Source: Candidatus Zixiibacteriota bacterium (GTDB lineage Bacteria > Zixibacteria > MSB-5A5 > GN15 > FEB-12). From it: a stretch of DNA of 38,370 nucleotides. Below are positions 16,634-18,937 of the stretch, in pieces. The notes beneath the pieces are model-generated. The model was not told the origin of the DNA. It worked only from the letters and a program-made list of their open reading frames with translations, and ran no database searches. The DNA lies in NCBI GenBank assembly GCA_040756055.1, contig JBFLZR010000011.1:1-38370 (forward strand), read 5' to 3'. A program made the position numbers and the translations under genes. Positions within the stretch are counted from its first letter, which is position 1, and each line of letters starts with the position of its first letter.

Positions 16634-17386
16634 ATGGGCTTCTGGGAATATTTAAAGCATATCGTAAATATACCCAAAGGGTTTGACGCTGAAGCCCGTC
16701 TGGCCGAGGTACAGAATATAATCGGCTATCATTTTCGCGATGAGTCACTGCTCTTGCTGGCGCTGACTCATCGCTCCTATCACCGCCAGTTGGAGGAGTT
16801 CCGTCCTTCCAACGAACGATTGGAATACCTGGGGGACTCGGTCCTCGGTCTGATAATTGCCGATCAACTCTATCATGATCATCCTTACTGGCGTGAAGGC
16901 AAACTCACCAAGACCAAGGCCAAGCTCGTTAACGAATCAACCCTCTCCGCTATCGGCAGGGAAATCAAACTGAACGCTTATGTACTTTTGTCTCCCGAGG
17001 AAGACCGTCTGGGCGGCCGGGAGCGTCCGTCGATCATTTCCGACGCGTTCGAGTCGGTCATTGGGGCGGTTTATCTCGACGGCGGGTGCGACGCCGCGCG
17101 CGACGTGGTCCTGAGACTGATATATCTTCGCAAGGAAATGATTCTTGCCGACGCCTCGCAGCGCAACTACAAAGGAGCGTTGCTGGAGTTGATGCAGGCC
17201 AGAGGCGATGGGATGCCGCGCTACGATGTCGTCAGAGAGACGGGACCGGACCACGAGAAGGAGTTCAAGGTCGTCGTGTTCATCGGCGACAAACGCGTGG
17301 GCACCGGTGTGGGATTCTCCAAGAAGGAAGCCGAGCAGAGAGCCGCGGCGATGGCGCTTGATATTCTCGAGAACGGTGAAGACTGA
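16634..17386 (+). CDS. rnc: Ribonuclease III
   Basis: Cuts double-stranded RNA in rRNA processing and mRNA turnover. The RNase III domain has ERLEYLGDSVL at 61-71 (Glu64 and Asp68 metal ligands) and SDAFESVIGAVYLDGG at 136-151 (Asp137 and catalytic Glu140). The C-terminal double-stranded RNA-binding domain runs from about residue 175 to 247 and ends in GFSKKEAEQRAAAMAL. At 250 residues it is slightly longer than E. coli Rnc, because of an N-terminal extension of about 20 residues. No separate ribosome site is evident, so coupling to fabF is likely. Confidence 0.96.
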   Translation: MGFWEYLKHIVNIPKGFDAEARLAEVQNIIGYHFRDESLLLLALTHRSYHRQLEEFRPSNERLEYLGDSVLGLIIADQLYHDHPYWREGKLTKTKAKLVNESTLSAIGREIKLNAYVLLSPEEDRLGGRERPSIISDAFESVIGAVYLDGGCDAARDVVLRLIYLRKEMILADASQRNYKGALLELMQARGDGMPRYDVVRETGPDHEKEFKVVVFIGDKRVGTGVGFSKKEAEQRAAAMALDILENGED

Positions 17387-17465: not shown

Positions 17466-17494
17466 TTGACAATTTTCCCAACATCCCTTATCAA
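17466..17494 (+). promoter_or_regulatory. Promoter of the histone H1-like gene
   Basis: TTGACA (17466-17471), 17 bases, then TATCAA (17489-17494). Transcription would begin near 17501, giving a leader of about 100 bases that ends with AAAGGAG before the start at 17603. Confidence 0.55.
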
Positions 17495-17602
17495 CAAACG
17501 GGTTGCAAAGATTTCGCGATGAAAAGAGCAACGATCCGAAGAAGAATGCAATGCACAAACTAATTCTTTAACCATCGGTAACCTTTACAAAGGAGTGATT
17601 CA

Positions 17603-17986
17603 ATGCGCAAAGCAACCAAGAAAACAGTTCGTAAGGCTAAGGCTAAAAAACCGGCCGTGCGTAAAGGCGCCAAGGCATGGGCTGCTGCGGAAGTGTCCAC
17701 GCTGCGCAAGGCATACAAAACCAAAACCGCGACTGAGCTGGCCAAGATGTTCCGCAGAAGCGTTTCATCCGTGAAGGCCAAAGCCCGCTCGCTGAAGCTG
17801 AAAAAGGCTAAAGTGAAAAAGGCGGCGCCGAAGAGAAAAGCCGCTCCGAAGCGCAAAGCCGTAGCCCGCAAAAAAGCCGCTCCCAAGAGAGTGACCAGGA
17901 AGAAAGTGGCTAAGAAAAAAGCCGCTCCGAAGAAGAAAGCGGCCGCGAAGACCTCGAAAAAGAGAGTCGCCAAAAAGAGAAAATAA
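17603..17986 (+). CDS. Histone H1-like basic protein with a Myb/SANT-like domain
   Basis: A 127-residue protein in which roughly a third of the residues are Lys and many of the rest Ala, Arg or Pro. Residues 1-25 are basic. Residues 26-68 (WAAAEVSTLRKAYKTKTATE onward to RSLKLKK) look like the small Myb/SANT-like helix-turn-helix found in DNA-binding proteins, with ELAKMFRRSVSSVKAKA as the likely recognition part. Residues 69-127 are degenerate KKAAPKRKA repeats like the tails of H1 and bacterial Hc1/AlgP-type proteins. A role in DNA compaction or gene control is inferred. Strong ribosome site AAAGGAG, own promoter and own terminator suggest a well-expressed single gene. Confidence 0.75.
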   Translation: MRKATKKTVRKAKAKKPAVRKGAKAWAAAEVSTLRKAYKTKTATELAKMFRRSVSSVKAKARSLKLKKAKVKKAAPKRKAAPKRKAVARKKAAPKRVTRKKVAKKKAAPKKKAAAKTSKKRVAKKRK

Positions 17987-18018
17987 GAGCGAGAAAGCCT
18001 TATTCGATCTATAAAAAG

Positions 18019-18042
18019 CCCGTCGTCCGGCGGGTTTTTTTT
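18019..18042 (+). terminator. Intrinsic terminator after the H1-like gene
   Basis: CCCGTC (18019-18024), loop GTCC, GGCGGG (18029-18034), then eight T. The six-pair stem includes one T-G pair. It ends the H1-like transcript 33 bases past its stop. Confidence 0.85.
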
Positions 18043-18069
18043 ATTACGCGCTCGCAAGTCCCGACAGGC

Positions 18070-18098
18070 TTGACAAGACCCCGCCGATTTATGATATT
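18070..18098 (+). promoter_or_regulatory. Promoter of etfB
   Basis: TTGACA (18070-18075), 17 bases, then GATATT (18093-18098), with the overlapping alternative TATGAT at 18090-18095. Transcription would begin near 18105, about 47 bases before the etfB ATG. Confidence 0.5.
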
Positions 18099-18151
18099 CC
18101 TTCAACATATTGGCCCAATCGAAATCGATACCACAATCGACAGGAGATACA

Positions 18152-18937
18152 ATGAATATAGTCGTCTTAATCAAACAGGTTCCGGAGATAGCCCTCATTA
18201 AGGTGGATCAAGCCGCCAACGAGGTTGTGCTCCCACAGGGACCGGGAACGGTCAACCCTTTCGATGAGTATGCCGTGGAAGAAGCCCTGCGGATGAAAGA
18301 AAAGCACGGCGGCAAGGTGACGGTCATGACGGTCGGCACCGACAGGGCCGAATCCGCCCTGCGGGCATGTCTGGCTCTCGGCGTCGATGAGGCTTGCCTT
18401 CTCAGTGACGATACGTTCAAGGGCTCCGACCAGCAGGCAATAGGTAAAATCCTCTCCTGCGGCCTCAAGAAACTTGGCGAATACGACCTCATTCTGGCCG
18501 GCAAACAGGCCATCGATTCCGACTCCGCGCAGGTCCCCGGAGCTGTGGCCGCCGCACTGGGTCTGCCGCAGGCCATGTTCGTTAAGAAATTCGAGAGTGT
18601 CGGCGATGGTAAGGCTACCGTGTACCGCACGACCGAAGATGGATACGACGTGGTGGAACTGACCCTCCCCGCGGTAGTGTCGGTGGTCAAAGAAATAAAC
18701 GAACCGCGCCTCCCGTCGTTAAAGGGCAAGATGGCCGCGAAAAAGAAAGAGATCACCAAATGGAGTGCTTCGGATCTCGGTCTCGATGGCGCCGCGATTG
18801 GCGGCAATTCGAAGACGAAGGTCACCAAAGTGTCGCCTCCGCCGCCGCGCCCCAAGGGTGAGCTTATCGAAGGTGAGACGCCTGAAGAGATTGCCGGCAA
18901 GCTGTTCACCAAGCTCAGGGATAATCAGGTACTTTAA
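18152..18937 (+). CDS. etfB: Electron transfer flavoprotein, beta subunit
   Basis: The 261-residue beta subunit of an electron transfer flavoprotein, which passes electrons from acyl-CoA and other dehydrogenases to a quinone or other acceptor. The N-terminus MNIVVLIKQVPE and the internal NPFDEYAVEEALR, DLILAGKQAIDSDSAQVP and LPAVVSVVKEINEPRLPS segments are family hallmarks. ATG 18152 is chosen because AGGAG lies 5 bases before it. An upstream TTG at 18110 would add 14 unrelated residues. The usual partner etfA does not follow; a terminator comes immediately instead. Confidence 0.93.
   Translation: MNIVVLIKQVPEIALIKVDQAANEVVLPQGPGTVNPFDEYAVEEALRMKEKHGGKVTVMTVGTDRAESALRACLALGVDEACLLSDDTFKGSDQQAIGKILSCGLKKLGEYDLILAGKQAIDSDSAQVPGAVAAALGLPQAMFVKKFESVGDGKATVYRTTEDGYDVVELTLPAVVSVVKEINEPRLPSLKGKMAAKKKEITKWSASDLGLDGAAIGGNSKTKVTKVSPPPPRPKGELIEGETPEEIAGKLFTKLRDNQVL

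Follow-up and report, generated by a model that had tools for sequence, protein, structure and literature searches.

The window, by which we mean the whole stretch of 38,370 nucleotides that was analysed, is contig C11 of the 12 contigs that make up the 3.3 Mb genome of a Candidatus Zixiibacteriota bacterium (G000). A small gene, which we call gene A, lies in it between two genes named from sequence as rnc and etfB-like (Table 1), and a paralogue, gene B, lies on another contig of the same genome. The product of gene A is strongly basic, with a mass of 14.1 kDa and a pI of 12.0; lysine and arginine fill 56 of its 127 positions, and aspartate and glutamate fill two. A basic N-terminal segment leads into a helix-turn-helix core, and the core is followed by a tail that an earlier reading of the window (hereafter the sequence-only reading) had described as about 60 residues of KKAAPKRKA-type repeats. 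The description holds: the 57 residues of the tail comprise 23 lysines, 7 arginines, 15 alanines and 4 prolines, giving 30 lysines and arginines in all, and acidic residues are absent. The DNA that encodes the tail contains a weak tandem array at 17912-17951. For the etfB-like gene the start is probably at 18152, with AGGAG before it. We also note an open frame of 212 residues antisense to gene A (17560-18198, minus strand), which is most likely a by-product of the lysine and alanine codons.

Table 1. Gene A with its parts, signals and neighbours in the window, and its paralogue elsewhere in the genome
Feature	Position	Strand	Basis or remark
rnc (ribonuclease III), upstream conserved neighbour	16634..17386	+	named from sequence
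Promoter: -35 TTGACA 17466-17471, 17-nt spacer, -10-like TATCAA 17489-17494	17466..17494	+	sequence and conservation
Leader end: TAACC box 17579-17583, Shine-Dalgarno AAAGGAG 17589-17595	17579..17595	+	sequence
Gene A open reading frame	17603..17986	+	ATG start, 127 aa
Basic, presumably disordered N-terminal segment, residues 1-25	17603..17677	+	composition; pLDDT of residues 16-25
Helix-turn-helix core, residues 26-68	17678..17806	+	alignment, AlphaFold model
Lys/Ala/Pro tail, residues 71-127, KKAAPKRKA-type repeats	17813..17983	+	composition
Intrinsic terminator: hairpin 18013-18040 and T run	18013..18042	+	-15.7 kcal/mol
etfB-like gene (electron transfer flavoprotein beta), downstream conserved neighbour	18110..18937	+	named from sequence
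Paralogue B of the same genome	G000:C10:28038-28400 (L057:2998-3399)		Arg/Ser-rich tail

Expression signals

A strict-rule promoter scan and a terminator scan of the window listed neither the promoter nor the terminator of gene A, and in a scored two-hexamer scan the best site was, for most single genes, not unusual in comparison with shuffles. We call the promoter because its position is conserved across A genes and not from single-gene scores. Among 28 syntenic A genes (the copies of G026 and G051, cut by contig ends, were left out), TTGACA/T occurs within 160 nt upstream in every one, versus 2.7 expected from mononucleotide shuffles, and in 27 of them it lies between -112 and -151 relative to the start; the full arrangement TTGACA-17-TATCAA is common to the window and L005. 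Terminator-like hairpins follow 19 of the 28 genes versus 0.22 expected; of the nine genes without one, one lacks downstream sequence altogether. The separate promoter, ribosome site and terminator that had been claimed for the gene are thus all found, and a promoter and terminator of its own imply for gene A a probably monocistronic transcript whose leader is about 100 nt long. The further suggestion of an abundant product gains nothing from codon usage, since the codon index of gene A, 0.68, falls in the middle of the range of 30 window genes (0.56-0.78) and at the lower end of that of 17 reference ribosomal-protein open reading frames (0.675-0.768); what might point to abundance is the promoter, Shine-Dalgarno and terminator signals only.

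Within 18 nt before the Shine-Dalgarno sequence, 24 of the 28 A genes and 16 of 21 genes of type B have a TAAC-type box, a pattern that we picked after viewing the data; among Shine-Dalgarno-like sites in the window the count is 14 of 273. The box is possibly a shared translation enhancer or control element. Similar boxes are seen by eye before several of eight HU loci.

Homologues and conservation

The sequence-only reading had proposed a search for homologues of the same two-part layout, and such a search finds core plus basic tail recurring in seven families of the phylum. Residues 1-71 of gene A were matched in 75 of 98 genomes at E <= 0.01 (the window's own genome counted), and of 132 genomes in the phylum a profile of the core matched 92 at E <= 0.001, leaving 40 without a match. 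The core matches are strong in 83 of the 132 genomes, which belong to families f1-f4, f8, f9 and f14, and are weak only (E > 1e-10) in 9 of the 92. A scan of 84,980 species genomes with one protein, sensitive to close relatives only, gave three loci, all in metagenome-assembled genomes (two of Candidatus Zixiibacteriota, one of an FCB group bacterium). A weak third match in the window's own genome (C3:277227-277370, E 0.016, two stops) was discarded, as the core profile gives nothing there. A phage or plasmid source of gene A likewise finds no support: window residues 16-75 have no match at E <= 0.1 in 50,697 phage records or in 72,556 plasmid records, and viral contigs match neither these residues nor B.

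We aligned 69 sequences, 48 of type A (window included) and 21 of type B; L001, L003, L004, L006, L009 and L023 were dropped as repeats of the window or of doubly held loci, and L068 (B type) and the tail-less second helix-turn-helix frame of L039/L165 also stand outside the alignments. In a tree on 47 columns only, clades A and B each occupy one side of a branch with 100/100 support. All 69 sequences, and hence both clades, share W26, R52, K60 and K68 without exception; the last three are basic and lie in or around the recognition helix, which is strongly conserved; in clade B its RTVYSVRYKA is nearly invariant. Between the window and its congener G002 the core has a dN of 0.106 and a dS of 1.81, that is a dN/dS of about 0.06, and dN/dS is below 0.3 in every listed close pair with estimable dS. 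Judged by these substitution rates, the core is under purifying selection.

The tails behave differently from the core. Those of clade A contain 35% lysine, 17% arginine, 21% alanine and 6% proline, with no acidic residue in 45 of 48, and run from 12 to 130 residues (median 54.5, some being shortened by contig ends), so that they show the lysine-, alanine- and proline-rich, low-acid repeats of variable number that mark an H1-like tail. Even within one genus, L025, L031 and L033 have tails of 106, 69 and 96 residues. In clade B the tails contain 28% arginine, 12% lysine and 11% serine, and 20 of 21 are free of acidic residues. The core is kept, as its dN/dS and invariant residues indicate, and the tails hold composition rather than sequence or length. 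Free variation of residues 26-68, in the way of a low-complexity tail, had been named as grounds for giving up the idea of a folded unit; we see the opposite.

A B-type match occurs in 44 of the 54 genomes of family f1 and is commoner there than A, the count being taken from the places of core-profile matches, with unfetched members assigned to B by their lower identity to the window. A gene for an AI-2E-type transporter, named from sequence, adjoins B at 17 of 22 B loci. B also has a conserved PSVWKGN-type segment following the core.

Predicted fold and structural neighbours

Structure prediction places a helix-turn-helix within residues 26-68, where the sequence-only reading had expected a compact Myb/SANT-like unit. 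The AlphaFold2 model of gene A, made for residues 16-75 from the 69-sequence alignment, contains three helices, spanning protein residues 28-37, 43-50 and 54-63 (model residues 13-22, 28-35 and 39-48), with a mean pLDDT of 91-92 over model residues 11-50 and a pTM of 0.64; model residues 1-10 (protein 16-25) have a mean pLDDT of 64. In a VIA-align comparison, where a Z below 8 may reflect merely a common helical arrangement and every neighbour of the core falls below 8, GcrA of Caulobacter comes first with its DNA-binding domain (5yiu, Z 7.7, rmsd 1.3 A, 47 aligned residues, 28% identity), and the GcrA-DNA complex 5yiv gives Z 7.2 and rmsd 0.9 over 43 residues. Lower in the list come Tc3 transposase (Z 6.1), the spliceosome chain 7w59_L, which we take to be CDC5L (Z 6.1), Reb1 (Z 6.0), 1h8a, presumably a Myb complex (Z 5.8), and 2din, the Myb domain of CDC5L (Z 5.4). 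A separate model of B again has GcrA first (5yiv, Z 6.6), and its tail has a pLDDT of about 50-62. Both models show a three-helix helix-turn-helix with the third helix as recognition helix, an assignment that, at Z below 8, is one of fold type.

Foldseek gave zero matches at E <= 0.001 for the gene A core against the PDB; against viral models its lowest E was 3.5e-3, and several of the matches there carry the name GcrA or Myb-like. When the sequence profile of the family was compared with structure chains, the SANT domain of DNAJC1 (2cqq) came at E 4.8e-4, 2lvs, a CRISPR-repeat-binding protein according to its title, at 0.0013, GcrA at 0.016 and the DMP1 Myb domain at 0.076; the two other chains, with E values of 0.086 and 0.22, belong to unrelated proteins. 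The Pfam Myb models leave the window protein unmatched, and Myb_DNA-binding matches 5 of the 69 members weakly at E <= 0.1 (best 0.0046). The family profile and the predicted structure agree on the Myb/SANT likeness of residues 26-68; the nearest neighbour, however, is GcrA and not a eukaryotic Myb protein.

Could a core so rich in basic residues be a chance product of composition? Shuffle controls rule this out. A profile of 67 relatives, made without the window and its congener, gives the window segment 80.9 bits versus at most 8.2 for 1000 shuffles of it, and a profile of clade B only gives 41.0 bits versus at most 11.5.

Searches of Pfam and NCBIfam match the window protein to no family. 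Membership of the GcrA family is ruled out by the absent match to PF07750, which is also without a match in G000 and has one over cut-off, at another locus, among 61 genomes. A fusion with HU is ruled out as well, for the gene A protein has no match to Bac_DNA_binding (HU/IHF, PF00216) and the HU genes are separate: G000 has two, and HU occurs in 59 of the 61 genomes (own counted), mostly in open frames of about 90-120 residues that are, by length, mostly tail-less. HC2 (PF07382) does not match the window protein or the tail-only protein of L115 described below, and gives the orthologue L034 21.5 bits versus a cut-off of 40. All 69 cores match PHROG 323, the group of phage T5 D5, at E <= 0.01, and D5 is annotated as a DNA-binding protein; D5, however, has 255 residues and several helix-turn-helix-like segments and lacks a basic tail, unlike A, and we dropped the profile as a specific link to it because it also matches 13 of 14 control genomes.

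Occupied, empty and tail-only sites

In family f1 gene A sits between rnc and etfB, with both neighbours in 25 genomes and with one neighbour before the contig end in 5. Thus of 54 genomes 30 have A at the site, 16 have an empty site, 2 have a tail-only protein and 6 (G005, G018, G020, G025, G038 and G053) are unreadable. In the 16 empty ones, a third of the 48 readable sites, rnc adjoins etfB without an A-like gene; G001 and G003, congeners of the window, are among them, and G015 and G037, counted here as empty, have an A gene elsewhere. The empty sites contain no ATG-started basic frame of 15 or more residues, and their sole TTGACA/T is found 46-76 nt ahead of the etfB match, at the place expected for the promoter of etfB itself, so that the promoter of A is missing as well. 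As A is absent from 16 of 48 sites and HU is present anyway, A is not a core packaging protein.

The two tail-only genes encode basic proteins of 144 residues (G019, L115:931-1365) and 36 residues (G021, L114:1155-1265) in which the core is absent. By eye, TTGACA can be read 148 and 134 nt before their respective starts, a Shine-Dalgarno sequence is present in each, and a hairpin follows the stop. Because outgroup families have proteins with core and tail, these sites are more simply read as having lost the core, and the presence of tail-only proteins with a promoter and a Shine-Dalgarno sequence makes it probable that the tail is of use by itself.

Discussion

Starting from computed observations, namely the layout, the predicted fold, the conserved core, the transcription signals, paralogue B and the tail-only proteins of the site, the best reading by layout and predicted fold is that gene A encodes a bacterial DNA-binding protein with an H1-like tail on a GcrA/Myb-type domain. 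As to its function, we propose, and think fairly probable, that it is an accessory nucleoid-associated protein of the Zixiibacteriota, whose core would place or orient it and whose tail would bind and condense DNA. How might such a protein work? The third helix of the core would enter the major groove and so place or orient the protein, with a modest or a strong sequence preference. The Lys/Ala/Pro tail and the basic N-terminus would bind the DNA backbone nonspecifically, raising affinity and screening charge, and might aid the condensation of neighbouring segments, as proposed for HupB and Hc2-type tails. A would act beside HU and, in most genomes, also beside the Arg-tailed paralogue B of equal layout; as HU occurs in nearly all of the 61 genomes, A and B come on top of it. 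DNA binding, condensation and the way in which core and tail share the work are what we infer here, and the role given to the tail is borrowed by analogy from work on HupB (PMC5676037), Hc2 (PMC2848022) and AlgP (PMC9239181).

Each half of this design has known counterparts. The core has the hydrophobic pattern and the three-helix arrangement of eukaryotic Myb/SANT domains (DNAJC1, CDC5L, Myb). Classical Myb domains have three tryptophans; the A core, unlike them, has one invariant tryptophan and is compact, without tandem repeats. In GcrA, a two-domain sigma cofactor, residues 1-45 form a three-helix DNA-binding domain similar in length and fold to the A core, but there the protein continues into a linker and a sigma-interacting domain (108-173; PMC7403470), whereas A has an H1-like tail instead. 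As regards overall layout, mycobacterial HupB (PMC5676037) and Streptomyces HupS (PMC3784963) likewise join a folded DNA-binding domain to a Lys-rich tail, though the fold is that of HU and not a helix-turn-helix, and the H1-like tail of HupB is described as indispensable for nucleoid association (PMC5676037). The tails of A have the Lys/Ala-rich repeats of varying number seen in Hc2/HctB and AlgP (PMC2848022, PMC9239181), and the tail-only proteins of G019 and G021 resemble Hc2 and H1-like proteins; in the sections of PMC2848022, PMC9239181 and PMC8578834 cited here, however, no helix-turn-helix is reported for Hc2/HctB, H1-like proteins or AlgP, the N-terminal domain of AlgP being a putative helical one of 124 residues. 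Xanthomonas H1-like proteins are tabulated in PMC8578834, one of them with an HC2 match in its C-terminal part only. A fusion of helix-turn-helix and H1-like tail was not found in the cited parts of PMC4989314 or PMC8578834. More broadly, among the matches listed from the open-access literature we found no fusion of a bacterial Myb/SANT/GcrA-like domain with such a tail. The small Streptomyces nucleoid protein Gbn, which we take to be SCO1839, would be a further analogue of A. A proteomic survey describes SCO1839 as a helix-turn-helix regulator of 7.6 kDa (PMC3784963).

The likeness to GcrA also raises the question whether A is a classical sequence-specific transcription factor, acting at few sites in the manner of GcrA, with a tail that merely speeds the search and adds affinity. 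A core nearest to the GcrA DNA-binding domain, a recognition helix as strongly conserved as this one, nearly invariant in B, and a lone gene with its own promoter would all suit such a factor; yet outside the core one sees no sigma-interacting or ligand domain but a basic tail of low complexity, the whole GcrA family has no match in A or anywhere in G000, and in two genomes tail-only proteins occupy the rnc-etfB site. We regard this reading as unlikely. Also rather unlikely, in our view, is a lineage-specific two-protein chromatin layer of Lys-tailed A and Arg-tailed B, in which each protein has a GcrA-like reader of sequence or of methylated adenine that directs where its H1-like tail condenses the chromosome, some species having given up the reader and retained the tail.

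The composition of the tail fits DNA, RNA and polyphosphate alike, and AlgP, with its H1-like KPAA tail, associates with polyphosphate granules (PMC9239181). A might then be mainly a binder of RNA, ribosomes or polyphosphate, with a polycationic tail and an accessory core, and having rnc as its neighbour would agree with this. We consider it quite improbable, since the core is of a DNA-binding fold type by profile and predicted structure, paralogue B, with the same core, sits elsewhere, usually beside the transporter gene, and A has its own promoter, independent of rnc. That the core has stopped reading DNA, leaving A a plain polycation with a folded plug, as the coreless variants at the site and a core that is itself 27% lysine and arginine in clade A might suggest, is very improbable given the low dN/dS of the core and the invariance of R52, K60 and K68 across both paralogue clades.

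In bacteria, H1-like tails have been described as free-standing proteins (Hc2) and as extensions of other domains, for instance HU (HupB, HupS). The parts of the A protein are thus known; their joining on a GcrA/Myb-type helix-turn-helix is what the literature matches listed do not contain. If A is an accessory nucleoid-associated protein as we propose, a linker-histone-like design would have been built on more than one fold. Moreover, two paralogues across much of the phylum and natural tail-only versions at the rnc-etfB site offer a test, already in place, of how much a folded domain adds to a generic DNA-condensing tail.

L165 (G056:C1, about 3028966-3029115) is an open frame that ends in the core; the tail is absent, and an A-type gene of the normal short-tailed kind lies some 6 kb away. 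L160, L161 and L164 (G119, G122 and G088), from families with weak core matches only, are proteins of about 230 residues (L164 is cut) with several consecutive helix-turn-helix-like repeats distantly related to the core. Finally, two adjacent open frames of L159 in the window's own genome (G000:C4, about 260343-260911) and one of L162 in G002 have a similar N-terminal domain, and in them a GcrA-like helix-turn-helix lies near the C-terminal end.
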